Shown here: positions 294 through 60,292 of the stretch, one piece after another | Layout of the letters: each line of letters opens with the position of its first letter | How positions within the stretch are numbered: position 1 is the stretch's first letter | Assembly (NCBI GenBank): GCA_018268675.1 | Contig: JAFDWB010000080.1 | Location: 1 to 64,000, forward strand | Length of the DNA: 64,000 nucleotides | Direction of reading: 5' to 3' | DNA from: Actinomycetota bacterium | GTDB lineage: Bacteria; Actinomycetota; Thermoleophilia; Solirubrobacterales; 70-9 | Notes under the pieces: generated by a model | What the model was told of the DNA's origin: nothing | The model's database searches: none | What the model saw: the letters and a program-made list of their open reading frames with translations, nothing else | Translations under genes and position numbers: made by a program

Positions 294-2588
294 ATGCCGG
301 AGCGCGGTGAGCATAACTGGCCGGGGGACGAGCTCGGCTCCTTCCTCGATCGGTTGGGCCAGGGGGAGGATGAGAGCGGGCGATTGATCGATCGGCTGCC
401 GGTGATCGTCTACGCCTCCGAGCTGGGGGAGAACGGGCGCTGGCGCTATGTCAGCCCGCAGGTCGAGAAGATCCTCGGCTACACGCCGGAGGAGTTCCTC
501 GGCGATCCGTCCCTGTGGGCGCGGCTGGTCTACCCCGAGGACCGCCTGCGGGCGCTGGCGGTGGAAAGTCGCGAACGGCTCGGCGACCGTGACACCCACC
601 CGGTCGAGTACCGGATGTTCACCAAGGCGGGCCGCGTGGTCTGGATGCTCGACGAGGCGGTGCTCGAGGCCGACGCCAACGGCATCCCGGTCTGGCACGG
701 CGTCCTCTACGAAATCAGCGAGCGCAAGAGCGCGGAGATCGACCTGCAGCGCTCGCTCGCCCAGCAGGCGGTGGTCGCGCGCCTCGGCGAACGGGCGCTC
801 AAAAACGGCGACCCGGAGGCGCTGATGCGCGACGCGGTCAGCCTGATCGGCGAACTGGACGGGGTCGAGTTCGCCTGCATCTGGGAGGTCGGCCGCGACG
901 GGCGCCGCCTCAACCTGCGGGCGGGACTCGACGAGAGCGCCCTCGCCTCCGCCCGCCGCATCTCGGCCGGGCGCGACTCGCACGCGGGCGCGGCGCTCGA
1001 CGCCGGCGTGCCGGTGATCGTCGCCGACTGGGCCGCCGAGGAACGCTTCACGATGCCGCCCGCGGTCCGCGCGCTCGGCGCCGTCAGCTCGCTGGCGGTG
1101 GTGATCGACGGCAAGGACCGCCCCTTCGGCGTGCTCGACGTCCACTCCGCCGAGCCGCACCGCTTCGACCCCAAGGACGTGCCGTTCCTGGAAGCCTCGG
1201 CCAACGTCCTCGCCGATGCCTTCGAGCGCCACGCCGCCGACCGGGCGCTCCGGCACCGCGTCCTCCACGATGCCCTCACCGGCCTCCCCAACCGGCTCAG
1301 CTTCGTCGACTCGGTGGACGAAGCGCTCGGCCGCTCCTCCGTCTCCGGCTCGCCGGTCGGGATCCTCTTCCTCGACCTCGACCACTTCAAGCTGATCAAC
1401 GACAGCCTCGGCCACCACGCCGGCGACGCCCTCCTGCGCGCGGTCGCGCCGCGGCTGCGCGCCCACCTGCGCCCCGGCGACATCGTCGCCCGCTTCGGTG
1501 GCGACGAGTTCGGGATCCTGATCGACCGGCTCGCCGACGACGGCGAGGCGATCGCGATCGCCGAGCGGGTCGCCGCCGCCTTCGCCCAGCCCTTCTCGAT
1601 GCAGGGCGTCGACCACTTCGTGAACTCCTCGATCGGGATCGCCGTCGCCCACCCGACCGCGGGCCAGGCGACCAACGCCGAGCTGTTGATCCGCGACGCC
1701 GACGCGGCGATGTACCGGGCCAAGGAGGGCGGCCGCAACCGCACCGTCCTGTTCGACGCCGAGATGCGCGCGACCGCCGCCCGCCGGCTCGAGACCGAAC
1801 GCGAGCTGCGCGGCGCGATCGAGCGCGACGAGCTCGAGCTGCGCTACCAGCCGATCGTCAACCTGCGCACCGGCGAGGTGACCGGGCTCGAGGCGCTGGT
1901 CCGCTGGCGCCACCGCGAGCGCGGCCTGCTGGAGCCGCGCGACTTCGTCTCGATCGCCGAGGACAGCGGCCTGATCGAGCCGATCGGCGTCTGGGTCCAG
2001 GAGCGCGCCGCCCTGCAGGTCCTCGAATGGCACGAGCTGCGGCCCGACGACCGCCCGCTCGACGTCGCCGTCAACCTCTCCGCCCGCCAGGTCGCGCACC
2101 GCGGCCTCGCCGCCGGCGTCGCCGAGGTGATCGCCCGCACGGGCCTCGACCCGGTCCACCTGCGCCTCGAGATCACCGAGACGGTGTTGGTCGAGGAGTC
2201 GGCCTCGGCGATCGCCTCGCTGGAGGCGCTGAACGAGCTCGGCGTCCGCCTCGTGCTCGACGACTTCGGCACCGGCTACTCCTCGCTCGCCTACCTCAAC
2301 CGCTTCCCCTTCCACGCGCTGAAGATCGACCGCTCCTTCGTCGACGCGCTCGGGGTCGAACAGGAGGGGACGGCGATCGTCGAGGCGGTGATCGGGATGG
2401 CCCGCGCGCTCTCGCTCGACGTGATCGCGGAGGGGATCGAGAACGATGTCCAGCTCGCCGAGCTGCGCCGGCTGGAGTGCGACTACGGCCAGGGCCACCT
2501 CTTCCACGAGGCGCTGCGGGCGGAGGAGATCAGCCGGCTGATCACCGCCGGCTCGCTCGACTATTCCGGGATTTCGTCGATCAGGTAG
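294..2588 (+). CDS. PAS-GAF-GGDEF-EAL cyclic-di-GMP turnover protein
   Basis: A 764-aa cytoplasmic signalling protein predicted to make and/or degrade c-di-GMP. Domain order: PAS with PAC tail (about residues 30-150), GAF (about 160-320), GGDEF (about 325-490) and EAL (about 505-760). The cyclase site is an intact GGDEF at residues 402-406, preceded by an RPGD inhibitory site with the usual five-residue spacing. The EAL half keeps EALVRWRH, VNLSARQ, LEITETVL, DDFGTGYSSL, KIDRSFV and AEGIEN, so both activities look possible. No membrane segment is seen; sensing would be by PAS/GAF. The frame is open back to 39, but the upstream part is repeat DNA, so ATG 294 is chosen. Its end overlaps the convergent next gene by 28 bp. 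Confidence 0.9.
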   Translation: MPERGEHNWPGDELGSFLDRLGQGEDESGRLIDRLPVIVYASELGENGRWRYVSPQVEKILGYTPEEFLGDPSLWARLVYPEDRLRALAVESRERLGDRDTHPVEYRMFTKAGRVVWMLDEAVLEADANGIPVWHGVLYEISERKSAEIDLQRSLAQQAVVARLGERALKNGDPEALMRDAVSLIGELDGVEFACIWEVGRDGRRLNLRAGLDESALASARRISAGRDSHAGAALDAGVPVIVADWAAEERFTMPPAVRALGAVSSLAVVIDGKDRPFGVLDVHSAEPHRFDPKDVPFLEASANVLADAFERHAADRALRHRVLHDALTGLPNRLSFVDSVDEALGRSSVSGSPVGILFLDLDHFKLINDSLGHHAGDALLRAVAPRLRAHLRPGDIVARFGGDEFGILIDRLADDGEAIAIAERVAAAFAQPFSMQGVDHFVNSSIGIAVAHPTAGQATNAELLIRDADAAMYRAKEGGRNRTVLFDAEMRATAARRLETERELRGAIERDELELRYQPIVNLRTGEVTGLEALVRWRHRERGLLEPRDFVSIAEDSGLIEPIGVWVQERAALQVLEWHELRPDDRPLDVAVNLSARQVAHRGLAAGVAEVIARTGLDPVHLRLEITETVLVEESASAIASLEALNELGVRLVLDDFGTGYSSLAYLNRFPFHALKIDRSFVDALGVEQEGTAIVEAVIGMARALSLDVIAEGIENDVQLAELRRLECDYGQGHLFHEALRAEEISRLITAGSLDYSGISSIR

Positions 2589-3583
2589 GCGTTGGAGAGC
2601 AGTTCGGAGGCTTTCGGCAGCGCCGAGATCAGTTCTTCGTCACGCATCCAGGCCGCGAATTCTTCCCACTCCTTCGGGTTCATCCAGCCGTACGGCTTGC
2701 CCGGGGTGCGGGCGGAGAGCAGCGGCAGCGTCGCTTTCATCTCCGCCGCGACGAGTTTCGGTTCGAGGCTCGGGTTGGCGGCGAGGATCGCTTCGGTCGC
2801 CGCTTTCGGGTTCTTCACCGCCGCTTCGGTGCCGCGCCGCAGGGCGGTCATGAAGAGCCGGATGCGTTCGCCGTTCGCTTCCAGGGTGGAGCGGCGGGCG
2901 ACGAGGACGAGCTCGTCGTAGGTCGGCACGCCGAGCTGGTCGACCGGGGTGATCACCGGTTCCTTGCCGCGCTGCTGGAGGTCGACGCCCTCGACGTTCG
3001 AGTAGCCGCCGAGCATCGCCTGCGCCGAGCCGCCTGCCAGCGAGGGGATCAGGCCGAAGCCGACGTTGACCAGGTTGACCGAGGAGAACGGCACCTTGGC
3101 CCGCCCGAGGATCGTCTTCATGAAGGCTTCCTGGTAAGGGATGCCGGCGTAGGAGACGGTCTTTCCTTTCAGGTCGGGGACGCTTTTGATCCCCGATTTC
3201 TTCAGCCAGATCAGCGAGGTCAGCGGCTGGTTGACGAGCGCGCCGACGGCGACCACGTCGAGCCCCTGTTCGCGGGCGAGCGCCACCTCGGGCTCGTAGG
3301 TGATCGCCAGTTCGGCGCGGCCGGAGGCGACGTCCTTGAGCGGCGCCGAGGGGTCGGTGGGCGTGTTGATCGCCACTTCCAGCCCCGCTTCCTTGAAGAA
3401 CCCTTCTTTTTCCGCCATGTAGATCCCGGCGTGGTCGGGGTTGGGATAGAAGTCGAGGTCGAGCGTCAGCTTTTCCGGTTCGCCCTTCAGGTTCTCCGAC
3501 TTGGAGCCGCAGGCGGCGAGGCCGAGGCCGACGATCAGCAGGGCGAGGGCGACGACGGTCGCCCGGGCGGCGGTGGGCTTCAT
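2561..3583 (-). CDS. ABC transporter substrate-binding lipoprotein, ThiY/SsuA-like (NMT1 family)
   Basis: A 340-aa lipoprotein receptor for an ABC importer. It has an N-terminal signal with lipobox LAAC, followed by an NMT1/THI5-type periplasmic-binding fold. The segment LDFYPNPDHAGIYMAEKEGF resembles the start of pyrimidine-precursor (ThiY) receptors, so a thiamine pyrimidine or related heterocycle is the best guess; an alkanesulfonate is the alternative. It is the last gene of a three-gene minus-strand operon, 10 bp after the permease. Most of its Glu codons are GAA, unlike cytoplasmic neighbours. I saw no thiamine-pyrophosphate riboswitch upstream of the operon. Confidence 0.82.
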   Translation of the reverse strand: MKPTAARATVVALALLIVGLGLAACGSKSENLKGEPEKLTLDLDFYPNPDHAGIYMAEKEGFFKEAGLEVAINTPTDPSAPLKDVASGRAELAITYEPEVALAREQGLDVVAVGALVNQPLTSLIWLKKSGIKSVPDLKGKTVSYAGIPYQEAFMKTILGRAKVPFSSVNLVNVGFGLIPSLAGGSAQAMLGGYSNVEGVDLQQRGKEPVITPVDQLGVPTYDELVLVARRSTLEANGERIRLFMTALRRGTEAAVKNPKAATEAILAANPSLEPKLVAAEMKATLPLLSARTPGKPYGWMNPKEWEEFAAWMRDEELISALPKASELLSNAYLIDEIPE

Positions 3584-14852: not shown

Positions 14853-15995
14853 TTGAGCCGCAGACGAACTTTCGCCCTGCTTGCCGCGTTCGCCGCGCTG
14901 GCGGCCCTGCTCAGCGCCTGCGGGGGTGGCGGGGGCAGCAGCGCCGATCCCCAGCAGGTGATCGAAAGCGCGACCCTCGAAGGGGTGGAAAGCGGCAACA
15001 TCGACCTGTCGCTCGAGGTCAAGGCGGAAGGGAAGCACGGCGGCGAGGTGAAGGTCGAGCTCAACGGCCCCTTCCAGTCGACCGGCAAGAACAGCATCCC
15101 CGAACTGGCCCTGGAAGCCAAGGCGAACGGCGAAGCGGGCGGCGAAAAGGTCGACTTCGAAGGCGGCCTCACCGTTCTCGGCGACCGCGCCTACATCGGC
15201 TACAAGGGCAAGGAGTACGAAGTCGAACCGACCACCTTCGGCTTCATCAAGTCGGGCTTCGAAGAAGCGCAGCAGGAAGGCGCGAAGGAAAGCAAGGGCG
15301 GCGAAGCGACCGCGTGTCAGAAGGCGGCGACCTCGCTGAAGCTCGAAGAATTCGTCCAGAACCTCGAAAACGCGGGCAGCGAGGAAGTCGAAGGCGTGAA
15401 GACCGTCAAGCTGAGCGGCGACCTCGAACCGAAGAGCGCGATCGACACGGTGATCAAGCTGCTCGAAACGCCGGCCTGCGCGTCGGAGCTGGAAGCCACC
15501 GGGTCGCTCCCGCTGGGTGAACTCAAGGCCCAGCAGCGGCAGCTCACGGACGCGATCAAGACCGCCCACGTCGAGGTCTACGTCGGCGAAAGCGACCACA
15601 TCATCCGCAAGGTGGTGGCCGACCTCTCGATCGAACCCCCGGGCACCGGCGAAAAGGCCGAAGTCGAGCTCGACCTCACGCTCGGTCAGGTGAACGAACC
15701 GCAGACGATCAAGGCGCCGTCGGGCGCGGAACCGCTGCAGAAGCTGTTCCTCCAGCTCGGCATCAACCCGATCGAACTGCTCGGGATGATGGAAGGCGGC
15801 GGCAGCCAGAATCTCGGCGGTCTGCTCGAAGGCGTCACCGGCGCGATGGGCGGCGGGGCGTCGGCGGGGGGCGGCAACTCGGGCGCGGCGGAACTCGAAC
15901 TGCCTTCGGGCGGACCGTCTAAGGAATTCACCGAATGCATCAAGAAGGCCAACGGCGCGACCGACCTGCAGAAGTGCGCCACCCTGATGGAATAG
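14853..15995 (+). CDS. Secreted lipoprotein, LppX/LprAFG-like or LolA-like fold (unassigned)
   Basis: A 380-aa lipoprotein. The signal peptide RRRTFALLAAFAALAALLSAC ends in a lipobox LSAC, followed by a Gly-rich linker and a repetitive, charged beta-rich domain (residues about 50-330) and a Gly/Ser-rich segment near 330-350. Two cysteine pairs lie late in the protein (ATACQKA, TPACAS; FTECIKK, LQKCAT). TTG 14853 is chosen because AAGGAG lies about 10 bp upstream and it places the signal peptide at the start. Glu is encoded mainly by GAA, the opposite of cytoplasmic genes here. The function is not known; anchored lipid or glycolipid carriers share this fold type. Confidence 0.72.
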   Translation: MSRRRTFALLAAFAALAALLSACGGGGGSSADPQQVIESATLEGVESGNIDLSLEVKAEGKHGGEVKVELNGPFQSTGKNSIPELALEAKANGEAGGEKVDFEGGLTVLGDRAYIGYKGKEYEVEPTTFGFIKSGFEEAQQEGAKESKGGEATACQKAATSLKLEEFVQNLENAGSEEVEGVKTVKLSGDLEPKSAIDTVIKLLETPACASELEATGSLPLGELKAQQRQLTDAIKTAHVEVYVGESDHIIRKVVADLSIEPPGTGEKAEVELDLTLGQVNEPQTIKAPSGAEPLQKLFLQLGINPIELLGMMEGGGSQNLGGLLEGVTGAMGGGASAGGGNSGAAELELPSGGPSKEFTECIKKANGATDLQKCATLME

Positions 15996-15999
15996 GCGC

Positions 16000-17184
16000 C
16001 TGACCGCCGACGAACCCGACCCCGGGCAGTCTCCGTCCAAGCCTCCCGCGGGCCCTGCCGGGCCCGCGGGGCCGCCGCGCCTCGACGCCGCCTTCCTGCG
16101 CAGCCCGCAGGGCTACCCGTACCTGCTGGCGCCGCTGATCCCGATCGCGGTGGCGCTCGACCTGGCGGGCGTCTCGTCGGTCGTCGTCTTCGCCACCTCG
16201 GCGCTCGGGATCATCCCCACCGCGGCGCTGATGGGGCGGGCGACGGAGGAGCTCGCCGCCCGCTCCGGCCCCGGCATCGGCGGCCTGCTCAACGTCACCT
16301 TCGGCAACGCGCCGGAGCTGATCATCGCCCTCTTCGCGCTCGGCAAGGGGCTGCAGGAGGTGGTCAAGGCGTCGATCGTCGGCTCGATCGTCGGCAACAT
16401 CCTGCTCGTGCTCGGCGCCGCGATGCTGGCGGGGGGGCTCGGCCGCGACAAACAGTTCTTCAACCGGACCGGCGCCGCGATCCAGACCTCGATGCTGATG
16501 CTGGCCGCGGCGGCGCTCCTGATGCCGGCGATCTTCGAGCTGGTCGAGGGCAAGGGCCTGCCGCTCCCCGGCTCGGTCGCCACCCACTACGGGGGCACGG
16601 TCGAGCACCTCTCGCTGGCGGTCGCGATCGTCCTCATCGGGACCTACGTCCTCGGCCTCCTCTTCTCGCTGAAGACCCACCGCGACCTCTTCAACCCCGA
16701 ATACGAGGAGGAGGACGGCTGGGGGTGGTCGGTGCGCACCGCGGTGATCGCGCTGGCGATCGCGGGGGTGCTGGTCGGGGTGATGTCGGAGGTGCTGGTC
16801 GGCTCGATCACCGAAGCTTCCGAGTCGATCGGCCTCTCGGAGTTCTTCATCGGCGTCGTCGTGGTGGCGATCGTCGGCAACGCGGCCGAGCACTGGGTCG
16901 CGGTCCTCGTGGCCCGCAAGGACAAGATGGACCTGGCGGTGAACATCGCGATCGGCTCGAGCGGCCAGGTAGCCCTCTTCGTCGCGCCGGTCCTCGTCAT
17001 CGCCTCCTACTTCGTCGGGCCCTATCCCTTGGCGCTGGTCTTCAACGGCTTCGAGCTGGGGGCGATCGTGATCGCGATCATGGTCGCCAACTACGTGATC
17101 CAGGACGGCGAGTCGACCTGGTTCGAGGGGGTGCAGCTGCTCGCCGTCTATCTCGTCTTCGGGCTGGCGTTCTACTACGCCTGA
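16000..17184 (+). CDS. Ca2+/H+ antiporter, CaxA-like (CaCA superfamily)
   Basis: A membrane antiporter with about eleven segments. The two alpha-repeat motifs are visible as NVTFGNAPELIIALFAL and AIVGNAAEHWVAVLVARKDKM, each with the catalytic Glu. The acidic loop YEEEDGWGW separates the halves. The conserved first helix (YPYLLAPLIPIAVAL) precedes GTG 16150, so that codon is too late. The only plausible upstream start in frame is CTG 16000, 4 bp after the lipoprotein stop, which would fit translational re-initiation. The N-terminus is Pro/Gly-rich. It overlaps the next exchanger gene by 1 bp. Confidence 0.8.
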   Translation: MTADEPDPGQSPSKPPAGPAGPAGPPRLDAAFLRSPQGYPYLLAPLIPIAVALDLAGVSSVVVFATSALGIIPTAALMGRATEELAARSGPGIGGLLNVTFGNAPELIIALFALGKGLQEVVKASIVGSIVGNILLVLGAAMLAGGLGRDKQFFNRTGAAIQTSMLMLAAAALLMPAIFELVEGKGLPLPGSVATHYGGTVEHLSLAVAIVLIGTYVLGLLFSLKTHRDLFNPEYEEEDGWGWSVRTAVIALAIAGVLVGVMSEVLVGSITEASESIGLSEFFIGVVVVAIVGNAAEHWVAVLVARKDKMDLAVNIAIGSSGQVALFVAPVLVIASYFVGPYPLALVFNGFELGAIVIAIMVANYVIQDGESTWFEGVQLLAVYLVFGLAFYYA

Positions 17185-21275: not shown

Positions 21276-23114
<1,839 letters not shown>

Positions 23115-25060: not shown

Positions 25061-27718
25061 ATGTCTCGCAGGTCCAGGCGCGTACCTTCACCTCTTGCCC
25101 TCGCACCGCTGATCGCGGTGGTGCTCGCGCTAGGCCTGCTTGCGCCGGCCGGAGCTGAGGCCGTCGCTGGGTTGACGACTTCCTCGGCGCTCTCGCCGCA
25201 GCTTGCGCAGTTGGCGACGCCGGCGGTGCGGGCGAAGTCGCTCGCCGGGCAGGCGGCGGCCGTCGGCGTGCCGAGCGAAGGGGCCGGGACGCTGGTCCGC
25301 GAAGGCCGCCGGGTGATCGTCGAAGCGCGCTTCGAAGCCGGCGCGGCGGCCGCGGTCGAAGCGGTGGAAGCGGCCGGGGCGAAGGTGCTGAACGTGAGCG
25401 GCCGCTACCAGACGCTGGTGCTCTCGGTGGCGCCCGCGGACCTCCCGGCGCTTGCCGCGGTCCCCGGGGTCGTGGCCGTGACCCCGTCGCTGGCGCCGGA
25501 AGTCGCCGCCGTGGGGGCCGCCGGCGCCGCGGCGATCTCCTCCAACGGGCTCTGCGAAGGCGGCTCGGTAATCAGCCAGGCGGTCGAACAGCTGAACGTC
25601 GGCGCCGCCCGCGCCGCCTTCGGCTACCGCGGGGCGGGGGAGACGATCGGGATCATCTCGGACTCCTTCAACTCGGCCACCGAAGGCCCTGGCGGCGGGC
25701 CGATCGCGACGACCGCCCACGGCGACGAAGTCACCAACGACCTGCCGGGGCCGGCGAGCACCTGCAGCGGCCAACAGCTCCCGGTGAACGTGATCGCCGA
25801 AGCCCCCGCGGGTCAGCCGTCGTCCGCCTACACCGACGAGGGCCGGGCGATGCTGCAGGCCGTCCACGACCTGGCGCCGCACGCGAAGCTCGCCTTCGCC
25901 ACCGGCGAGCCGGCGGAAATCTCCTACGCCCAGAACATCGAACGGCTGGCGGCGCCGGTCAGCGCGGGCGGGGCGGGGGCGAACGTGATCGTCGACGACC
26001 TCTCCTACACGAGCGAACCGTTCTTTCAGGAAGGACCGGTCGCCGTCGCGATCCGCCGGGTGACCGAAAAAGGCGTGCTCTACTTCGCCGCCGCCGGCAA
26101 CGACAACCTGATCGACGCGTCGGGGCGCAACATCTCCTCCTGGGAAGCGCCGAAATTCCGCGGCGTGAGCAGCTGCAACCCGCTGGTCGTGATCACCCTG
26201 ACCGCAGCTCTCCTCGAAGCGGGCCTTGGGCCGTACCAGCCGGACTGCATGGACTTCAACCCGGGCGCGGGCGTCGACACCGAATTCGGCTTCACGGTCG
26301 AACCGGGGGGCAAGCTGTCGCTCGACCTGCAGTGGGCCGAACCGTGGTTCGGGGTGGAAACCGACCTGTTCGCGTTCCTGCTCGGGGAAGAAGGCGGCAC
26401 CCAGAAGATCCTCGAAGCGGCCGGCTCCAACCAGCTCTCGCCGAGGCCGTTCCTGCCGATCACGTGGGCCAACGAAACCGCCGCCCCGCAGACCGTCCGC
26501 CTGGTGATCGCCCGCTGCTCGGGCGCCGCCTGCAACCCGCAGGGGAGCGCGAGCGCCAACCCGCGGATCAAGCTGGCGATCGTCGACGACGGCTTCGGGG
26601 TCTCGGAGACCGAGTACCCGGAATCGAAAGAAGGGGACGTCGTCGGCCCGGTGATCTACGGCCACGCCGGGTCCTCCTACGTGACCGCGGTCGGCGCGGT
26701 CAACTTCCAGGAATCGAGGACGGCGCCGAAACAGCCGGAGCCGTACTCGTCGCGCGGGCCGGTCACCAACTACTTCGGCCCGGTCACGGGGACCACGCCC
26801 GCGCCGCCGCTCGGTGCGCCGGAAGTGATCCCGAAGCCGAACGTGACCGCCACGGATTGCGCCTCGAATACGTTCTTCGGCATCTTCGTCGCCTCCGGCT
26901 GGCACTTCTGCGGCACCTCGCAGGCGGCCGAGCAGGCGGCCACGGTTGCCGCCCTGATGCAGCAGGCGTCGCCGCCGGCGAGCCCCGCGAGCATCCTTTC
27001 GAGCCTGGGGTCGACCGCGACCAAATTCACCGTCGTCAAATCACCTGATGCGGTCGGCGCGGGGATGGTCAACGCGCTCGGTGCGACGCAGGCGCTCGGC
27101 GGCGCCCCGGTGGAAGACCCGCCCAGTCACGTCGTGGCGTCGGTGGAAGAAGAAGAACGGGCGGGGCCGCCGACGGTGCGGATCACCAACGGGCCGAAGC
27201 CGCTCGGCAACGACAACCGCCCGACCTTCGAATTCAGCGCCAGCCACGCGGCCGCGTTCCGCTGCCAGCTCGACGGCGGCGCCCCGCAGCCCTGCGCCTC
27301 GCCCTACCTCCTGCCGAGCCCGCTGGCCGACGGCGCCCACGGCTTCACCGTCACCGCCACCGACGCTCTGGGACGCAACGGCTCGAGTGGCGTCTACCAG
27401 TTCACCGTCGACACGGTCGCACCGCGCACGCGGTTCGTCGGGCACCCGAAGAAGGTCGTGAAGACCGCCAAGCGCAGCGTCGTCCTCAAGTTCAAGCTGC
27501 GGGCGAGCGAGTCCCCGGTCACCTTCTACTGTCAGTTCGACAAGGAACCGCTGCAGATCTGCGGGTCGCGCTTCCACCACCGCTTCACGAGGGGCAAGCA
27601 CGCGGTCCGGGTGCGCGCCAAAGACGCGGCGGGCAACCTCGCCGCGAAGCCGACCGTCTTCCACTTCCGGGTCAGGGAGCTTCCTCGGGCGGCGGGTCGG
27701 GCGCACCACTCGCACTAG
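25061..27718 (+). CDS. Secreted S8-like serine protease with His-to-Glu change and two C-terminal Ig-like domains
   Basis: An 885-aa exported protein. A signal peptide (residues 1-34) precedes a propeptide-like region (LPALAAVPGVVAVTPS). The subtilase core shows Asp 201 in IGIISDSFN, oxyanion Asn 347 in FAAAGNDN and Ser 620 in CGTSQAAEQAA. Where subtilisin has HGT, this protein reads DEGRAMLQAVHDLAPHA, placing Glu 260 at the His position. After it come two Ig-like modules (residues about 705-790 and 795-880) with paired Cys (FRCQLDGGAPQPC; FYCQFDKEPLQIC). Glu is mostly GAA. Activity with an E-D-S triad is plausible but unproven. Confidence 0.85.
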   Translation: MSRRSRRVPSPLALAPLIAVVLALGLLAPAGAEAVAGLTTSSALSPQLAQLATPAVRAKSLAGQAAAVGVPSEGAGTLVREGRRVIVEARFEAGAAAAVEAVEAAGAKVLNVSGRYQTLVLSVAPADLPALAAVPGVVAVTPSLAPEVAAVGAAGAAAISSNGLCEGGSVISQAVEQLNVGAARAAFGYRGAGETIGIISDSFNSATEGPGGGPIATTAHGDEVTNDLPGPASTCSGQQLPVNVIAEAPAGQPSSAYTDEGRAMLQAVHDLAPHAKLAFATGEPAEISYAQNIERLAAPVSAGGAGANVIVDDLSYTSEPFFQEGPVAVAIRRVTEKGVLYFAAAGNDNLIDASGRNISSWEAPKFRGVSSCNPLVVITLTAALLEAGLGPYQPDCMDFNPGAGVDTEFGFTVEPGGKLSLDLQWAEPWFGVETDLFAFLLGEEGGTQKILEAAGSNQLSPRPFLPITWANETAAPQTVRLVIARCSGAACNPQGSASANPRIKLAIVDDGFGVSETEYPESKEGDVVGPVIYGHAGSSYVTAVGAVNFQESRTAPKQPEPYSSRGPVTNYFGPVTGTTPAPPLGAPEVIPKPNVTATDCASNTFFGIFVASGWHFCGTSQAAEQAATVAALMQQASPPASPASILSSLGSTATKFTVVKSPDAVGAGMVNALGATQALGGAPVEDPPSHVVASVEEEERAGPPTVRITNGPKPLGNDNRPTFEFSASHAAAFRCQLDGGAPQPCASPYLLPSPLADGAHGFTVTATDALGRNGSSGVYQFTVDTVAPRTRFVGHPKKVVKTAKRSVVLKFKLRASESPVTFYCQFDKEPLQICGSRFHHRFTRGKHAVRVRAKDAAGNLAAKPTVFHFRVRELPRAAGRAHHSH

Positions 27719-28472: not shown

Positions 28473-30599
28473 TCAGGCGCTCCTCAGGCGTTCCGCCAGC
28501 CCCGAGTGCCGCCTGCTGCCCTCACCGCGGCCGACCGCGGCGGCCAGGGCGGCGGAGTCGCCGACCAGGATGCAGTCGCGGCGGGCGCGGGTGATCGCGG
28601 TGTAGAGGAGCGGGCGGGTCAGCATCCGGGTGTGGGAGCGGTGGCAGACGGCGACCACGACCGGGACCTCGCAGCCCTGCGCCTTGTGGACCGAGATCGC
28701 ATAGGCGAGCTTCAGGGTCGCCGTCTCGGAGTAGGGCATCCTCAGGGTGCCGCCCTCGTCGGTGTCGACGACGATCGATTCCTCGTCCGGGTCGTCCGCG
28801 CGCAGGAAGACGATCGAGCCGTTCATCAGCCCCAGCTCGTGGGAGTTGCGGGTCTGGATCAGCCGGTCGCCGATCCGGAAGCGCTCGCCGAGCGCCTTCT
28901 TGCCGTCCGGGTTGAGGCGCTCCTGGAGGCGCTCGTTGAGGGCGTCGATCCCGACCGGCCCGCGGTACATCGGCGCCAGCGTCTGCACCTCCCGGATCGG
29001 ATCGACGCCGAAGCTCTCCGCCGCCCGCTCGGCGACCACCTCGACCACCGTCTCCAGCGCTCGCTCGGGCCGGGGGCGCTCGATGAAGAAGAAGTCGCGT
29101 TCCTGGTCCGGGCCGGGCTCGAGGTGGGGCGGACGGCCGCGGTTGATCTCGTGCGCCGCGGTCGTGATCATCGATTTCGCCGCCTGGCGGAAGATCTGGG
29201 TGAGGCGGACCACCGGCGCCGCGCCGGATTCGATCAGGTCCTCGAACGGCTTGCCCGCCCCGATCGGCGGCAGCTGGTCGGCGTCGCCGACGAAGACGAC
29301 GTGGGTCGTCTCCGCCAGCCCCTCGAGCAGCACCTCGGCGAGCCGCAGGTTCAGCATCGAGGACTCGTCGACGATCACCAGCTCCACGGGCAGCGGCCGC
29401 CCGGGGCCGAAGCCGGGGTCGCCGCCGGGGATCCATTCGAGCATCCGGTGGATCGTCTGCGCCTCGTGGCCGGTCGTCTCCTGCAGGCGGCGGGCGGCGC
29501 GGCCGGTCGGCGCGCAGAGGGCGATCTTCGCCCCGGCGTCTTCGGCGGCGAGGACGATCTCCTTGGTCGCGCGCGTCTTGCCGACGCCCGGGCCGCCGGT
29601 CAGCACCGAGACGCGCGAGGCGAAGGCGCCCCGCACCGCCGCCCACTGCTCTTCGGTCAGCTCCTCGGAGGGGTCGCTCTCGCCCGGGTCGTGGTCGAGG
29701 TGCGGCGGCGCGGCCAGCCGTCGGGCCAGCGTCGCCGCCACCGCCCGCTCGCCGGCCAGGGTCAGCTCGCGGTAGACCCGCCCTTCCTCCTCGACCAGGC
29801 CGCGCGCCGCGGCGAGCACCGCCGGGTCGGGGACGAGGCCGATCAGCTTCGCCGTGCGCGCCGCGAGCTCCTCTGCTGGCAGGAAGCTGTTCCCGTCCTG
29901 CTCGGCCTCGCGCAGCGCATAGACGGCGGCCGCCTGGGCGCGTTTGTCGGACTCCGGCGGCACGTCGGCGGCGAGCGCGATCTTGTCGGCGCGGGTGAAG
30001 CCGACGCCCTCGACCTCGGTCAGCCGGTAGGGGTCCTCGTGAAGGATCTGGGTCGAGCGCTCGCCGTAGCGCGCGTGGATCGGCGCGGCCAGGTGGGCGA
30101 GGCCATGCGGGGCGAGCTGCACGTGGAGCTCGCGGACGGCGCGGCTCTCGTGCCAGGACCGGGTTGCCGCCGCGGCCTGGTCGACGCTGACGCCCTTCAG
30201 CGCGGCGAAGGTCCGCTGCGGGTCGGCGGCGATCACCTGCAGCACCTCCTCGCCGTGCGTGTCGCAGAGCCGTTCGGCGCGCTTCCTGCCGATGTGGCGC
30301 AGGGTGGCGAGGTAGGCGACCTGACCGGCGCGGTCGGTCGGGTCGAGCGGCAGCGCCCCCTGCGCGCGGAGCTGGCGGCCGTAGCGCGAGTGGGTCTGCC
30401 ACTCGCCGCTCACTTCGGCGCGATCGCCGGGCCCGAGGTGGGCGACCGGCCCGACCAGCGCGAAGCCTTCGCCGCCGTCGGCCTCCTGCACCTCGAGCAC
30501 CGCGTAGCCGTCGTCCTCGGCGCGGAAGATCACCCCGAGCACCTCGACGGTGCCGGTGTAGGAGGCGGCGTCGGCGTCGAAGAGGGTGGCGGTGCGCAT
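28473..30599 (-). CDS. recD2: RecD2-type ATP-dependent DNA helicase
   Basis: A 708-aa SF1B 5'-3' helicase acting without RecBC. The N-terminal OB-like region (VIFRAEDDGYAVLEVQE) and helix-hairpin-helix part (LRHIGRKRAERL, VEGVGFTRADKIA) define RecD2. Helicase motifs: Walker A GGPGVGKTRA, motif II VIVDESSML, motif III FVGDADQLPPIGAG, and the C-terminal YAISVHKAQGCE and LLYTAITRAR. ATG 30599 is the first start giving the conserved N-terminus; the open frame extends further but without support. Confidence 0.94.
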   Translation of the reverse strand: MRTATLFDADAASYTGTVEVLGVIFRAEDDGYAVLEVQEADGGEGFALVGPVAHLGPGDRAEVSGEWQTHSRYGRQLRAQGALPLDPTDRAGQVAYLATLRHIGRKRAERLCDTHGEEVLQVIAADPQRTFAALKGVSVDQAAAATRSWHESRAVRELHVQLAPHGLAHLAAPIHARYGERSTQILHEDPYRLTEVEGVGFTRADKIALAADVPPESDKRAQAAAVYALREAEQDGNSFLPAEELAARTAKLIGLVPDPAVLAAARGLVEEEGRVYRELTLAGERAVAATLARRLAAPPHLDHDPGESDPSEELTEEQWAAVRGAFASRVSVLTGGPGVGKTRATKEIVLAAEDAGAKIALCAPTGRAARRLQETTGHEAQTIHRMLEWIPGGDPGFGPGRPLPVELVIVDESSMLNLRLAEVLLEGLAETTHVVFVGDADQLPPIGAGKPFEDLIESGAAPVVRLTQIFRQAAKSMITTAAHEINRGRPPHLEPGPDQERDFFFIERPRPERALETVVEVVAERAAESFGVDPIREVQTLAPMYRGPVGIDALNERLQERLNPDGKKALGERFRIGDRLIQTRNSHELGLMNGSIVFLRADDPDEESIVVDTDEGGTLRMPYSETATLKLAYAISVHKAQGCEVPVVVAVCHRSHTRMLTRPLLYTAITRARRDCILVGDSAALAAAVGRGEGSRRHSGLAERLRSA

Positions 30600-30653
30600 C
30601 GCCACCAACGCTAGCCGGCGGCGAGGCGGGACGGCTCGGTATACCCTCGGGTC

Positions 30654-49328: not shown

Positions 49329-49436
49329 CTAGAGGCTTGATGCGGGTCATCCACGCACACGGATGACGCCCCATGCCGTCGCCGGATCGCCCTGTGACGC
49401 CCCCGCGCACGCGCCTGACCCACATCAAGCCTCTAG
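49329..49436. repeat. 108-bp inverted-repeat (MITE-like) element next to the IS
   Basis: CTAGAGGCTTGATGCGGGTCA (21 nt, 49329-49349) is repeated inverted at 49416-49436 with one mismatch. The 66 bp between them contain a small ACGGATGACG palindrome but no gene. The right arm includes the stop codon of the peptidoglycan hydrolase gene. It shares its first CTAG with the right edge of the IS, so the IS may have inserted into it or beside it. Confidence 0.65.
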
Positions 49437-51904
49437 TCTTCGCCGCGCGAACGGCCGCCGAGGATGCTCGCCGCCGAGTTCTGCCGCGGGTGGTCGGGCA
49501 GCGAGTACCTGGACGGTTCGATCGGCACCCTCGGGTTTTCGATCTGCCCGAGGCGGGTGATCAGGTGCTGCCACTGATTCGGCTTCAGCAGCGCCTGGTA
49601 CTGGGCTTCGAGGGGGTTGCCGGCTTCGATCGGGCGGTAGCCGATGTGGACGTGGTCGTAGTGGGACGGTTCGGCGAAGCTCACTTCACCGGGGAAGTTT
49701 TCGAGCGAGATCACCTGGTGCGGCTGCATCGGGCCCTGCAGTTCGAGCACGTCTTCGATCAGTTCGTGGACGAGCGTGCCCGGGCCCTGGTGCCCGGCGA
49801 CCGGGACGCCGTCGATTTCGGAGATGTCGACCGCGTCGCCGCTCGAGTGCTCGGAGACGTTGCCGCTTTCGGTCAGGTAGCTGTGGCCGCACTCGAGGGC
49901 GCTGATCCGCATCGTGAAGCCTTTCGTGCGCAGATACTCGAGCACCGCGAGGACGCGCCTATCGATCTTCCCCTGTTCGATGTCTTCGCGGCCGCACTGG
50001 TAGATGTCGAGCCCTTTGTCGTGGAGGACCCGCTGCTCCAGCGCTTCCTTGGAGAGCAGCAGGACCCCGGCGCCGCTCAGCTTTTCGTTGAACGGGTTCT
50101 TGCCCTTGGCGCGGTAGATCGCGGTGGCTTCGAGCAGCTTCCAACCGTCGAGGATCGGCTTCGGGTCGATCTGCGGTGCGCCCTTGCCCGCCGGCCGGAT
50201 CGAGAAGTTGATGTGAGCGTCGGAGCCTTCGGCAACGGGGGCGACATGGGAGATGACCGTCCCCGCGATCACCTTCGAGCCGACCCGGATCGAGCCCTTC
50301 CCGGCGGACTTTTCGATCAGTTCGACGGCCTTCTGTTCCTTTTCCACCTTCTTGCCCGAGCGCTGCGGGAGGGCGCGGAGCCGCGACCGCGGCTGTTCCC
50401 CGGCTTCTTCGGCCGGCAGCTGCTTTTCCTGGCCCCCGGGGGTGACGATCGTGCGGCCGTTGCGGACCAGCTTGCCGAGCCCGGCGTAGGTGTAGCGGTT
50501 GCCGTAGGTGTCTTCGAGGATGACGAAGTTGCCGAGCCTGGCCGAGTTGCCCATCTTGCGGATCACGCCATCGTTGACGGCGACCACCGGCGCCCCCGCC
50601 TTGGCGAAGACGTTGATCCCGCGCGGGTTCGGCGAGGAGGAGATGACTTCGGCGGCGTTGCTGCCGATCTTCGCGGTGGCCGCCGAGTCTTCCAGCGAGG
50701 TGCGGGCGGCGAGTTCGTCCGAGTAGCGGGCATCGGCGGCGATCGGGAAGTGGGCGCCCTCGGTGAGTCCGGTCAGCGAGCCGACCAGGTCAGACGGGAT
50801 GCGGCCGTAGGCGCGGGCGTAGGTGAGCACCTCCTGCGCGTACCAATCGGCGTGGTTGTAGGCGAGGATGGCGCCGTAGAGGTTCTTCTGGCCCCCCGCG
50901 ACCTTGAGGTAATGGGCGGCGGCGCAGATCGCGTCGACCGGGTTGTAGGGGTCTTTGACGCCGTCGCCGTTGGCGTCCAGCCCGTAGGTTTCCCAGGTCG
51001 ATGGGAGGAACTGCATCCAGCCGACCGCGCCGGCGCTGGAGACGTTGAGGTTCCGCCCGAAGTCCGTCTCGATTTTGTTGATCGCGGCGAGGACCTCCCA
51101 GGGGATCCCATATTCGCTGCCGCAGGCCTGGTAGATCGGGAGCAGGAACGGCGGGATCTCGAACGAGTTGATGACGAAGTTCGGGACGCCGATCGGTGCC
51201 GGGCCGAACGGCGCGATCGTCGTCGTCGGGTTCGCGGTGCTCGGCGCGCCGCCTGGTTCGAACTGGGCGCCTCCGGTGCTCGATTCGGGCAGCGGTTGCG
51301 TGCCACCGCCGGTGGCGCTCGGCGCGGTTACACCACCGCCGCTCTTGTTGCCCCCGCTCGGCTTGCCGAGGCTTTCGTTGTGGGTGACCCCGCCGCGGGC
51401 TTCTGGTCCCGGTTCTGCTTCGAGCGATTCGCCGCGGCCGAACTTCTTGTGGTGGCTCTTGCCCGATTCAGGTTTGCTTTCTTCAGACCCTGAGGCTGAG
51501 GTAGAGGCTGAGGGTGGCGACGGGGCGAGCGTTTCCCCGTGGGTCGGTTTGGTGGTCGCCGGTTCCGGCCCCTCGGTGTTGTCGCTGGGCGAGCTGCAGC
51601 TGGGATCTTCCATGTCGACCAGCCCGTTGCCGTCGTTGTCGATTCCGTCCGAGCACTGCGGCGGGGTCGTGCCCGGGGGCGTGGTGGTGGTCGATGGCGG
51701 GGTGGTCGTGGTCGGGCTGGTCGAGGTGGTGCCCAGGGCCGGCGACGGCGAGCCGCTCGTGCCGGGCGCGCCGCTCGCTTCGGAGGCGCCGCTTCCGGTG
51801 GTCGAGCTCCGGGTCCCGGCTGCCGGGGCGTTGGCGACCGCGGCCAGCGCGAGGAAGGCGGCCAGCGCCACGATCAGTACGAGCTTGCTTCTCATGCGCC
51901 TCAT
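49433..51904 (-). CDS. Secreted multi-domain peptidoglycan hydrolase (lytic transglycosylase + M23-like + M15-like)
   Basis: About 823 aa, exported. After a signal sequence (RSKLVLIVALAAFLALAAVA) there is a long Ser/Thr/Pro-rich linker with the motif CSDGIDNDGNGLVDMEDPSC. Module 1 (about residues 255-400) is an MltB-like transglycosylase with catalytic Glu in NKIETDFGRN and AVGWMQFLPSTW. Module 2 (about 450-600) resembles LytM/M23 but reads RGINVFAKAGAPV and HINFS, lacking the usual metal-binding His and Asp. Module 3 (about 640-780) is M15-like with SEHSSGDAVDIS and DHVHIGY. Mainly GAA for Glu. Its stop lies in the inverted-repeat element. Confidence 0.82.
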   Translation of the reverse strand: MRRMRSKLVLIVALAAFLALAAVANAPAAGTRSSTTGSGASEASGAPGTSGSPSPALGTTSTSPTTTTPPSTTTTPPGTTPPQCSDGIDNDGNGLVDMEDPSCSSPSDNTEGPEPATTKPTHGETLAPSPPSASTSASGSEESKPESGKSHHKKFGRGESLEAEPGPEARGGVTHNESLGKPSGGNKSGGGVTAPSATGGGTQPLPESSTGGAQFEPGGAPSTANPTTTIAPFGPAPIGVPNFVINSFEIPPFLLPIYQACGSEYGIPWEVLAAINKIETDFGRNLNVSSAGAVGWMQFLPSTWETYGLDANGDGVKDPYNPVDAICAAAHYLKVAGGQKNLYGAILAYNHADWYAQEVLTYARAYGRIPSDLVGSLTGLTEGAHFPIAADARYSDELAARTSLEDSAATAKIGSNAAEVISSSPNPRGINVFAKAGAPVVAVNDGVIRKMGNSARLGNFVILEDTYGNRYTYAGLGKLVRNGRTIVTPGGQEKQLPAEEAGEQPRSRLRALPQRSGKKVEKEQKAVELIEKSAGKGSIRVGSKVIAGTVISHVAPVAEGSDAHINFSIRPAGKGAPQIDPKPILDGWKLLEATAIYRAKGKNPFNEKLSGAGVLLLSKEALEQRVLHDKGLDIYQCGREDIEQGKIDRRVLAVLEYLRTKGFTMRISALECGHSYLTESGNVSEHSSGDAVDISEIDGVPVAGHQGPGTLVHELIEDVLELQGPMQPHQVISLENFPGEVSFAEPSHYDHVHIGYRPIEAGNPLEAQYQALLKPNQWQHLITRLGQIENPRVPIEPSRYSLPDHPRQNSAASILGGRSRGED

Positions 51905-52127
51905 AAACGGCGGGACGCTGCCACGGATGGCCGCAATCACGACCGGTTCCCCTCCCGGCAGGTTCCGTGGTTCACGCTACCGATGAGCCCGGTCGTGAGC
52001 AACGGCCTGCCGCGCACCCAATATGGCCTTAACGATCGTCCACCTCATGCCGCGGCCGGGAGATTTCCATGTAATGCGGATGCGGTCGTTAACCTGGCGT
52101 CAACAGCCCAAGAAGATTGGATTACGT

Positions 52128-56555: not shown

Positions 56556-58505
<1,950 letters not shown>

Positions 58506-58525: not shown

Positions 58526-59323
58526 GTGGCGGTGTCCGAGGTGAAACTGATGGGGGTCGTGAATGTGACCCCGGACTCGTTCTCCGACGGCGGGCTGTAC
58601 CTTGACCCGCGGGCGGCGATCGCGCACGGGAAGGCACTGGCGGGGGCGGGGGCGGCGATCCTGGACGTCGGCGGGGAGTCGACGCGGCCGGGGGCCGAGC
58701 CGGTCGGTGCGGAGGAGGAGCTGGCGCGGGTCGAGCCGGTGATCGCGGGGCTGGCCGGGGTGGCGGAGGCGATCTCGGTCGACACCTCGAAGGCGAGCGT
58801 GGCGGCGGCGGCGCTCGACGCGGGCGCCTCGATCGTCAACGACGTCACCGCCCTGCGGGGCGACTCCGAGATGGCGGCGCTGATCGCCGACCGCGGCGCC
58901 GGCGTCATCCTCATGCACATGGCGGGCGAGCCGCGGACGATGCAGGTGAACCCGCAATACGGCGATGTCGTCGCCGAGGTGCGTGATTTCCTCGCGGCGC
59001 GGCTGGCGGTGGCGGTGGCCGCCGGGATCGACGAATCGCGGATCTGGCTCGATCCCGGGATCGGCTTCGGCAAGACGGCCCAGCACAACTTCGAACTGCT
59101 GCGTGGGATCGGCGAGCTGGCGCGGCTCGGCCGGCCGCTCGTGATCGGCACCTCGCGCAAGACCTTCATCGGCCGCGTCGACGGCTCCGAGCCCGACCAC
59201 CGCCTGGGGGGCACGATCGCGACCTCGATCCTCGCCGCCACGGCCGGCGCCGCGGTCCTCCGCGTCCACGACGTGCGCGAGATGGCGCAGGCGCTGACCG
59301 TGGCGAGCGCGGTGCTCGGATAA
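58526..59323 (+). CDS. folP: Dihydropteroate synthase
   Basis: A 265-aa folate enzyme joining pABA and dihydropterin diphosphate. MGVVNVTPDSFSDGG is the first signature, ILDVGGESTRPGA the second, and WLDPGIGFGKTAQHN and IGTSRKTFIG the later substrate sites. GTG 58526 is the start. It heads the folP-folB-folK run. A folE gene, usual between ftsH and folP in related genomes, is not present here. Confidence 0.95.
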   Translation: MAVSEVKLMGVVNVTPDSFSDGGLYLDPRAAIAHGKALAGAGAAILDVGGESTRPGAEPVGAEEELARVEPVIAGLAGVAEAISVDTSKASVAAAALDAGASIVNDVTALRGDSEMAALIADRGAGVILMHMAGEPRTMQVNPQYGDVVAEVRDFLAARLAVAVAAGIDESRIWLDPGIGFGKTAQHNFELLRGIGELARLGRPLVIGTSRKTFIGRVDGSEPDHRLGGTIATSILAATAGAAVLRVHDVREMAQALTVASAVLG

Positions 59324-59332
59324 GTTCTCGTT

Positions 59333-59776
59333 GTGTCCGAGCCCGAGCCCCAGATGAATCCCGACGCAGGCAACGGCGGCGTCGAGTCGAGCGCCGAAGT
59401 CGAGCTCCGCGCCCTTTCGATCTACACCCACCACGGCGTGAGCGACGCCGAGCAGGAGGTCGGCCAGCGGCTCGAGTTCGACATCTCCTTCGACGTGCCC
59501 GACTGCGACGCGATGTTCACCGACCGGATCGAGGACACCGTCGACTATGCCGAGGTCTGCGACATCGTCGCCTTCGTCGCCACCGAGCGCAGCTACCGCA
59601 CCCTGGAGCGCCTCGCCCACGTGGTCGGCGAGCGGCTGATCGAGCGCTACGGCTGCGAGTCGGTCCGCGTCCGTGCCGCCAAGCCGGAGCCGCCGCTGCC
59701 GCTGGCGATCCAGGAGGTGGCCGTCGAGATCACCCAGGAGCGGGCGGTCGACGACGACGATTCCTCCGAGGACTAG
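59333..59776 (+). CDS. folB: Dihydroneopterin aldolase
   Basis: A 147-aa tunnelling-fold enzyme. VELRALSIYTHHGVSDAEQEVGQRLEF is read here in two pieces: LSIYTHHGVSDAEQEVGQ and the following strand. DTVDYAEVCDIV and TLERLAHVVGERLIE with the catalytic Glu/Lys region (AAKPEPPLPL) are clear. The N-terminal 20 residues are a non-conserved extension; the true start could be ATG 59354. The C-terminus is acidic. Confidence 0.92.
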   Translation: MSEPEPQMNPDAGNGGVESSAEVELRALSIYTHHGVSDAEQEVGQRLEFDISFDVPDCDAMFTDRIEDTVDYAEVCDIVAFVATERSYRTLERLAHVVGERLIERYGCESVRVRAAKPEPPLPLAIQEVAVEITQERAVDDDDSSED

Positions 59777-59788
59777 GCAGTTTCGACC

Positions 59789-60292
59789 GTGCCCGAGCGC
59801 GTCGGCTATCTCGGCCTGGGCTCCAACGTGGGCGATTCGGTGGGCCACCTGCGCGCGGCCCTCCAGCTGCTGCCGGCCACTGGCGTCCAGATCCTTGCCG
59901 TCTCCTCTACCTACGTGACCGAGCCGGTCGGCGAGATCCTCGACCAGCCCGACTTCCTGAACGCCGCCGTCCGCGTCCGCACCGACCTCGGGCCGGAGCA
60001 GCTCCTCGATGCCTGCAAGGCGGTCGAGGCCGAGCGCGGCCGCCAGTTCGACCTGCCCCGCCACAGCCCTCGCCCCCTCGACGTCGACCTGCTCCTCCTC
60101 GGCGACCTCGAGCTCCAGACCGACCGCCTCACCCTCCCTCACCCACAGGTCCGCGACCGCCGCTTCGTCCTCGCCCCCCTCCTCGAGCTCGACCCGAGCC
60201 TCACCCTCCCCGACGGCACCGCCCTCGCCGACGCCCTCGCCGCCCTCCCCGCCGACGAGCAGCGCGCCGAGCGCCGCTCCCCGCTCGCGTAA
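59789..60292 (+). CDS. folK: 2-amino-4-hydroxy-6-hydroxymethyldihydropteridine diphosphokinase
   Basis: A 167-aa HPPK. YLGLGSNVGDSVGHLRAAL is the N-terminal signature, STYVTEPVGEILDQPDFLNA the pterin site, and SPRPLDVDLLLLGD the metal-binding signature. The loop between reads ERGRQFDLPRH, a variant of the usual GRxRxxRWGPR. GTG 59789 follows folB by 12 bp. The fol run stops here; the next gene belongs to a lower-G+C islet. Confidence 0.93.
   Translation: MPERVGYLGLGSNVGDSVGHLRAALQLLPATGVQILAVSSTYVTEPVGEILDQPDFLNAAVRVRTDLGPEQLLDACKAVEAERGRQFDLPRHSPRPLDVDLLLLGDLELQTDRLTLPHPQVRDRRFVLAPLLELDPSLTLPDGTALADALAALPADEQRAERRSPLA

Follow-up and report, generated by a model that had tools for sequence, protein, structure and literature searches.

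In the genus of the genome studied here (called g1), GAA and GAG have probably ceased to be synonymous codons. GAA appears to be read by an orphan tRNA with the anticodon UUC, putatively charged by a second class II lysyl-tRNA synthetase (LysRS2), and the residue seems to be used in a manner resembling Glu or Asp; basing on sequence comparisons, we put the probability of this reading at roughly two in three. With somewhat less assurance, though still slightly on the favourable side of even, we propose that the residue is a noncanonical amino acid, i.e., a natural sense-codon addition to the genetic code that would be charged by a rebuilt LysRS and used mostly outside the cell.

Sequences and gene calling

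The stretch of DNA analysed, hereafter the window, has 64,000 nucleotides and corresponds to G000:C78:1-64000; the source genome G000 comprises 4.2 Mb in 95 contigs and is 96.65% complete. The wider sample of G000 covers 40 contig stretches (1.45 Mb of the 4.2 Mb) with 1332 called genes and a coding fraction of 0.887, and its codon statistics refer to the 1232 of them that encode 100 aa or more. GC content is 0.705 in the window and 0.71 in the wider sample. The custom gene caller masks Glu codons and scores GAA and GAG equally, so the GAA effect cannot be created by gene calling. Topology was assigned by simple rules of hydrophobicity and charge (positive-inside), and loops misassigned by such simple rules dilute the contrast in GAA between outside and inside. 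The genomes compared, most of which are fragmented assemblies, include the 11 sisters of G000 in g1 (G001-G011), G019 of another genus (g9) and the outgroup G014. Features are collected in Table 1.

Table 1. Features discussed in the text. Coordinates without a contig name refer to the window; counts are GAA:GAG of the gene or protein unless a part is named.
Feature	Location	Strand	Characteristics
Lipoprotein, 380 aa	14853..15995	+	TTG start, lipobox LLSAC; 39:8
Substrate-binding lipoprotein	2561..3583	-	22:7
Exported subtilase-like protein	25061..27718	+	38:10 (38:9 if start is 25226)
Exported MltB-like lytic transglycosylase with carboxypeptidase-like part (latter by eye)	49433..51940	-	47:10; Glu of KIET (aligned to the MltB catalytic Glu) and of PWE (PxE) are GAG
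FtsH	56556..58505	+	extracytoplasmic part 6:2, cytosolic part 4:49, P = 9e-5
Polytopic exchanger	16150..17184	+	2:17
TypA, cytosolic control	21276..23114	-	8:43
RecD2-like, cytosolic control	28473..30605	-	11:53
fol genes, cytosolic control	58526..60292	+	3:43 summed; singly 2:14, 1:19, 0:10
PBP1	L044:4527		71:12; Glu of SIED and FRE are GAG
PBP	C71:42802		28:12; two essential Glu are GAG
Kumamolisin-like	C75:44053		41:11; catalytic Glu and Glu of LDVE are GAG
GH92	C76:15907		25:10; Glu of TLE, EGN and GNEP are GAG (that of GNEP is Gln in 1/4 homologues)
CESGG protein	C76:63622		34:8; Glu of CESGG is GAG
RseP-like	L029:5834		19:8; Glu of HEAGH is GAG
COX2-like	C74:37631		Glu of CuA motif is GAA, sole exception of 14
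Orphan tRNA, 96 nt	G000:C40:12115-12210		acceptor GCGCCCG/CGGGCGC, A73, loop CUUUCAA, extra D-loop hairpin (read by eye)
LysRS2, second class II LysRS	C40:8561-10060		about 2 kb upstream of the orphan tRNA
Resident LysRS	C78:64740		just right of the window

Codon use in exported and cytosolic proteins

A preliminary description of the window stated that Glu is mostly GAA in the lipoprotein at 14853, the ABC receptor at 2561, the subtilase at 25061 and the peptidoglycan hydrolase at 49433, and mostly GAG in typA, recD2, the fol genes and polytopic exchangers. The counts in Table 1, to which a second exchanger of the window (3 GAA, 15 GAG) can be added, agree with both statements. Pooled, the four exported genes have 146 GAA and 34 GAG versus 174 and 972 in the 48 other window genes of at least 100 aa (odds ratio 24, P = 4e-70). 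The other two-fold codons of the lipoprotein end in G or C (AAA 0/AAG 27, CAA 0/CAG 16, GAT 1/GAC 10), and in FtsH the switch between GAA and GAG falls inside one gene.

The enrichment of GAA in exported proteins is real and strong also when the split by export is made on the 1.45 Mb. The GAA fraction of Glu codons is 0.126 in 459 strictly cytosolic genes (11828 Glu codons) and 0.684 in 95 strictly exported genes (1975 Glu codons), reaching 0.819 in lipoproteins. This corresponds to a log2 change of +2.44 for GAA, when codons of other families change by at most 0.62 (rare ATA, AGA and AGG excepted) and AAA, CAA and GAT show no shift with export or topology in this sample. Judged by eye, the 80 genes richest in GAA almost all appear to encode exported proteins, many having been labelled cytosolic through a wrong start. 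Several low-GAA genes of the exported class look misclassified or represent N-terminal anchors with cytosolic domains, and one gene, C76:1946-3259 (GAA 0.08 of 12 Glu), is an apparent true exception among exported genes.

The difference is kept in every GC3-matched bin (cytosolic/exported GAA of 0.184/0.784, 0.143/0.654, 0.125/0.782, 0.113/0.583 and 0.096/0.519). GC3, base context and disorder were each considered as a cause of the GAA rise and rejected, on account of these bins, of four base contexts described below and, for disorder, of a GAA fraction of 0.155 in disorder-like stretches of cytosolic proteins compared with 0.79 outside. Expression level is excluded as the cause solely by the switch inside single genes. 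In the outgroup G014, which is without the orphan tRNA, no export effect was found in 20 stretches with 403 genes (GAA 0.019 in lipoproteins, 0.079 in signal-peptide proteins and 0.066 in the cytosol).

Codon use in register with the residue

For 75 polytopic proteins the positive-inside topology could be assigned with confidence, and in these GAA accounts for 345/623 Glu codons in outside loops, 173/837 in inside loops and 7/90 in membrane spans, that is, 0.55, 0.21 and 0.08 within the same proteins (odds ratio of outside versus inside 4.8, P = 8e-43). The difference is present even in loops as short as 13-25 aa (52/90 outside versus 15/80 inside). When the topology was slid along the codons, the log-odds peaked at 0 (1.56), were about 1.5 at 10 codons either way, and had fallen to 0.61 at -40 and 0.39 at +40, with values of 0.4-0.6 at 40-50 codons either way. 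Because short loops differ and the contrast is greatest at the residue itself, the position of the ribosome relative to the translocon is not decisive. A cause at the level of the ribosome would shift the contrast by tens of codons, and since no such shift is seen, a difference between the residues themselves is the most economical interpretation; two codons for one identical residue would not be expected to produce it. In acyltransferase-SGNH, MMPL, FtsX-like and sigma-like/membrane fusions (family names assigned by eye), the switch lies near the domain border, and in some fusion proteins it precedes the predicted span by as many as about 70 residues.

The preliminary description regarded GAA in exported proteins as selected, perhaps for translation rate or for avoidance of internal GAGG/GGAG motifs. 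Our results support selection rather than drift, and this part of the interpretation stands; the two suggested reasons do not. Without a flanking G, where GAG could not form such a motif, the GAA fraction goes up from 0.119 to 0.680 all the same, the other three base contexts behaving alike, and the contrast has zero lag and is already present in the shortest loops mentioned above. Ordinary codon bias, due either to translation speed during export or to avoidance of Shine-Dalgarno-like motifs, can point to the mRNA-programmed pauses in E. coli membrane-protein targeting that are described in PMC4359368; we nevertheless regard it as very improbable, because, besides the base context, the lag and the short loops, only one codon family is affected and the effect is absent in G014.

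Two families were observed on the side. In a family of large polytopic proteins (C74:104360-106570, C9:5703-7955 and C7:41246-43900), the conserved Glu of the large outer loop (VLEFGGL) are GAG and the variable Glu of this loop mostly GAA. Three paralogues that have one span and whose N-terminal part resembles a sigma factor (by eye), L092:13649-14974 (C7:53649-54974), C74:94124-95500 and L019:8931-10349, carry a Pro/Ser/Thr tail packed with GAA, GAG being dominant before the span and GAA after it; these adjoin genes for large exported proteins.

Conservation of GAA between species

Homologues of the lipoprotein at 14853 have 36-48 GAA and 1-8 GAG in 10 g1 sisters, and 0-4 GAA and 5-36 GAG in 18 outgroup loci; pooled, the 11 g1 sequences have 467:51 and the outgroup 21:396, and the G019 lipoprotein is intermediate (8:11). 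At conserved Glu of the g1 lipoproteins, GAA is paired with GAG in only 4.6%, although this change is a single transition along the GC bias of the genome; the corresponding values are 74% for AAA to AAG and 94% for GAT to GAC. The GAA codons are kept across species in which the lipoprotein shares 50-72% identity with the query. In the alignment, columns with Glu in the outgroup hold GAA in 42/66 g1 cells. A public genome scan with the lipoprotein gave no match.

We also noted that, besides their use of GAA, exported g1 proteins are richer in Lys and poorer in Asp and Arg than their homologues from other genera. A recent shift of exported proteins toward Glu-rich sequence, in which GAA would have arisen from GAC as a mutational intermediate, would fit this composition; the persistence of GAA between species so divergent, and its occurrence in columns where the outgroup has Glu, leave this explanation barely credible.

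The orphan tRNA and LysRS2

Searching all of G000 for tRNAs with Rfam gave 51 matches, and ARAGORN at these sites assigned tRNA-Glu(CUC) on C91 and one single UUC anticodon, that of the orphan tRNA on C40. This program mis-folds the orphan tRNA of G000 and labels its relatives tRNA-Pro(ggg). The anticodon is that of tRNA-Glu, the loop CUUUCAA being found in 12/12 sequences; body and acceptor are unlike tRNA-Glu, since the best match to tRNA-Glu(CUC) is 9 nt. The nearest of 18 other tRNAs is tRNA-Arg(ACG), with the first 15 nt identical and 83% identity over 52 nt. Across the 12 sequences, inspected by eye, pairing in the D-loop insert is kept by two-sided changes (G000 and G019, for instance, differ by G-C to C-G and U-G to A-U), and the same holds for the T-stem.

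Full-length copies (88-99% identity) are present in 10/11 g1 sisters and in G019, and none was found in the other 28 relatives searched; in an even sample of 396 genomes across the phylum, G000 was the sole carrier. Canonical tRNA-Glu(UUC) was not found in G000 by the Rfam search and ARAGORN at its sites. A relaxed pattern applied to G000-G011 and G019 gave merely orphan-type copies or fragments and chance-like matches, and in the 100% complete G009 it gave the orphan tRNA alone. In the outgroup, ARAGORN verified a canonical tRNA-Glu(UUC) at 20 loci. Pieces of the 3' part of the orphan tRNA, resembling remnants of integrative elements, lie elsewhere in G000 (C82:342239-342285) and in G002, G003, G006, G008, G010, G011 and G019.

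LysRS2 belongs to the class II LysRS family: it scores 487.7 bits against TIGR00499 (NCBIfam lysS_bact, cutoff 427.6), matches PDB 3a74 with E = 1.6e-128 over 17-494, and aligns to LysRS over 14-494 of its 499 residues, with 51% identity to the resident copy. It is found (70-94% identity) in G000, in G019 and in the same 10 g1 sisters as the orphan tRNA, lying on two contigs in G011; the LysRS of the other 28 relatives have at most 53% identity. Of 399 genomes drawn from the class, 11 have LysRS2, representing 2/128 genera and including a second g9 genome, and a public genome scan with LysRS2 gave canonical LysRS alone among the 592 relatives listed (best listed, 45%). The tRNA and LysRS2 therefore co-occur in the same 12/41 genomes (P = 1e-10 if the genomes were independent, which is not the case) and lie within about 2.5 kb of each other in 11/12, the distance being 36 kb in G006, perhaps from an insertion. 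As a single gain would explain the co-occurrence equally well, the argument is carried by the linkage and by the GAA effect. In G005 (78% complete), the lipoprotein is GAA-rich (43:6), yet the assembly is without the orphan tRNA, LysRS2 and the prmC paralogue described below; canonical LysRS is also absent from it. We take these absences as missing sequence, which still leaves a gap in the correlation.

Compared with 99 canonical LysRS, LysRS2 has 13 columns with fixed differences, including Y276F, Y279G, S388W, N415G, F417G and E419D. All of these except S388W presumably belong to the lysine pocket or border on it, judging from LysU residues Y280, N424, F426 and E428. F, G, G and D occupy the positions of these four residues in 11/11 LysRS2, where at least 93% of the 99 LysRS have the canonical state, and we therefore class LysRS2 as a paralogue of LysRS rather than as an enzyme for lysine. 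Because no basic residue is gained among the fixed pocket changes, there is no obvious fit to an acidic substrate. An AlphaFold model from the 11 sequences was poor (pLDDT 54).

A prmC paralogue directly adjoins LysRS2 in 11/11 loci, with a 4 nt overlap in 5. At 72% identity or more, it occurs solely in the 11 LysRS2 carriers among 25 genomes, the other 14 having more distant PrmC (40-55%). G000 has two PrmC paralogues, L041:7767-8564 and L023:8286-9059, each with NLPY where PrmC of E. coli and Thermotoga has NPPY; since the resident PrmC thus shares NLPY with the paralogue beside LysRS2, a special change of this motif in the latter was rejected. In most of the loci L265-L273, including that of G019, an lgt-like gene (identified by eye) adjoins the prmC paralogue and LysRS2.

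The residue encoded by GAA

Catalytic or invariant Glu of the GAA-rich exported enzymes in Table 1 are GAG in 13/14 cases (P = 8e-8), or in 13/13 without the COX2 Glu (P = 2e-9), for a set that was compiled while looking and not fixed beforehand and whose positions come from PDB alignments or family motifs. Outside the 14 counted, the CAAX-type EE pair and the PVYE Glu of Lgt in g1 loci are all GAG. Together with the 4.6% change from GAA to GAG noted above, this suggests that GAA no longer behaves as a synonym of GAG. The absence of a lag, the increase of GAA in outside parts and the use of GAG for essential Glu argue that the product of GAA would not be plain Glu.

At 513 GAA positions in 126 reciprocal best pairs with G014, Glu is the best model for GAA among the 20 standard residues (-2.295), followed by Asp (-2.586), Gln (-2.801) and Lys (-2.979). 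Lys was our first guess, suggested by LysRS2, and was rejected by these alignments. Asp is the partner of GAA in 86/267 cases versus 244/1426 for GAG (P = 5e-8). In 12 exported orthologue pairs, the net charge per residue is -0.058 in G014 and becomes -0.021, +0.027 or +0.076 on the g1 side when GAA is counted as acidic, neutral or basic. The fit to Glu and Asp, the acidic charge balance and the lipoprotein columns together suggest that the GAA residue replaces surface Glu and Asp.

Reassignment of GAA to another standard residue, namely Lys by descent of LysRS2, Asp or Gln, is quite improbable on these figures: Glu fits better than any of the three, the charge balance comes nearest to G014 with an acidic residue, and the lysine-binding residues of LysRS2 are changed. 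What speaks for it is that LysRS2 passes the lysS_bact cutoff and that a discriminator A with U34-U35 would suit LysRS.

A stronger competitor, though still unlikely, is that GAA continues to mean Glu through the orphan tRNA, charged by GluRS or LysRS2, with error-prone or ambiguous decoding, so that GAG is kept for essential and cytosolic Glu. Glu is the best standard model, the essential Glu are GAG, and GluRS could recognise the anticodon UUC. In addition, GAA is depleted at conserved Glu, both in cytosolic genes (60/565 versus 89/492 elsewhere) and in the rest (68/721 versus 119/653); in GAA-rich exported genes there is no such depletion (53/77 at Glu conserved in G014 versus 124/177 elsewhere). 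Ambiguity explains avoidance of GAA, but not its rise to 0.7-0.8 outside against a GC3 near 0.95; nor does it explain why sister species keep GAA instead of changing to GAG, and it leaves the rebuilt pocket of LysRS2 without a role.

Proposed decoding and comparison with known systems

In the decoding that we prefer, GAG would be read in g1 by the ordinary tRNA-Glu(CUC), the ordinary tRNA-Glu(UUC) would have been lost, and GAA would be read by the orphan tRNA, the sole GAA reader found. From linkage and co-occurrence we infer charging of this tRNA by LysRS2. The amino acid would differ from standard Glu, and the prmC paralogue beside LysRS2 may help to make it. The residue would be Glu/Asp-like in substitutions, would be no stand-in for catalytic or invariant Glu, and may be useful outside the cell. 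Extracytoplasmic surfaces and tails would be its preferred places, and it would be avoided in cytosolic parts, in membrane spans and where Glu is essential. The sequences themselves show the link of codon to topology and its residue-level register, the orphan tRNA and LysRS2 with their linkage and co-occurrence, the altered pocket, and GAG for essential Glu; the charging, the nature of the residue and the reason for its use outside are deduced from these. Several observations speak against the proposed decoding: Glu is the best standard model for GAA, GAA is not depleted at conserved Glu of exported genes, the CuA Glu of the COX2-like protein is GAA, the rebuilt pocket gains no basic residue, about 13% of cytosolic Glu codons are GAA, and G005 leaves its gap in the correlation. 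Candidates that combine a Lys-sized pocket with Glu/Asp-like use are diaminopimelate, 2-aminoadipate and, because of the linked prmC paralogue, side-chain-methylated Gln or Glu, none of them supported so far.

If true, a sense codon captured by a dedicated pair, sorted by compartment and used in most exported proteins would represent a new mode of code evolution, a natural orthogonal LysRS/tRNA pair would be available, and a blind spot of code-inference programs would become evident. Selenocysteine and pyrrolysine are both inserted at stop codons. PMC11764691 describes them as the two natural extensions known for the set of twenty amino acids. Our literature searches gave no report of a GAA/orphan tRNA/LysRS2 system. 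The authors of Codetta note in PMC8629427 that for a noncanonical residue the program would return either a nonspecific model or an amino acid of similar use; as the latter would here be Glu, such screens could have missed the GAA case.

Several known systems share features with the one proposed. In export-linked codon bias, rare codons occur in signal peptides and pauses near spans. Codon choice correlates with export in both cases; unlike that bias, the present effect concerns Glu codons alone, extends over whole extracytoplasmic segments and is in register with the residue. EpmA/GenX, a LysRS paralogue that modifies EF-P, is likewise a LysRS-derived enzyme with a new substrate, as LysRS2 is proposed to be; unlike it, LysRS2 is full length and remains below the cutoff of the genX model (189 versus 287 bits). 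The pyrrolysine system consists of PylRS, tRNA-Pyl and pylBCD, and has a LysRS-related class II synthetase with a modified pocket, an odd tRNA and linked genes in few lineages. Among bacterial sense-codon reassignments, that of AGG to Met and those of CGA/CGG to other residues are described in PMC8629427; they resemble our case in capture through a changed tRNA and in that several of the codons are rare for the base composition, as GAA would be, whereas they concern Arg codons and standard residues and ours a Glu codon. The pyrrolysine system is similar to LysRS2 and the orphan tRNA in its LysRS-related class II synthetase with a modified pocket, its odd tRNA, its linked genes and its few lineages. 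It differs in that pyrrolysine is encoded by UAG and our case concerns the sense codon GAA in most exported proteins; moreover, LysRS2, unlike PylRS, is a paralogue of bacterial LysRS, and the orphan tRNA has a tRNA-Arg-like body with a D-loop hairpin and would carry an amino acid that is putative.
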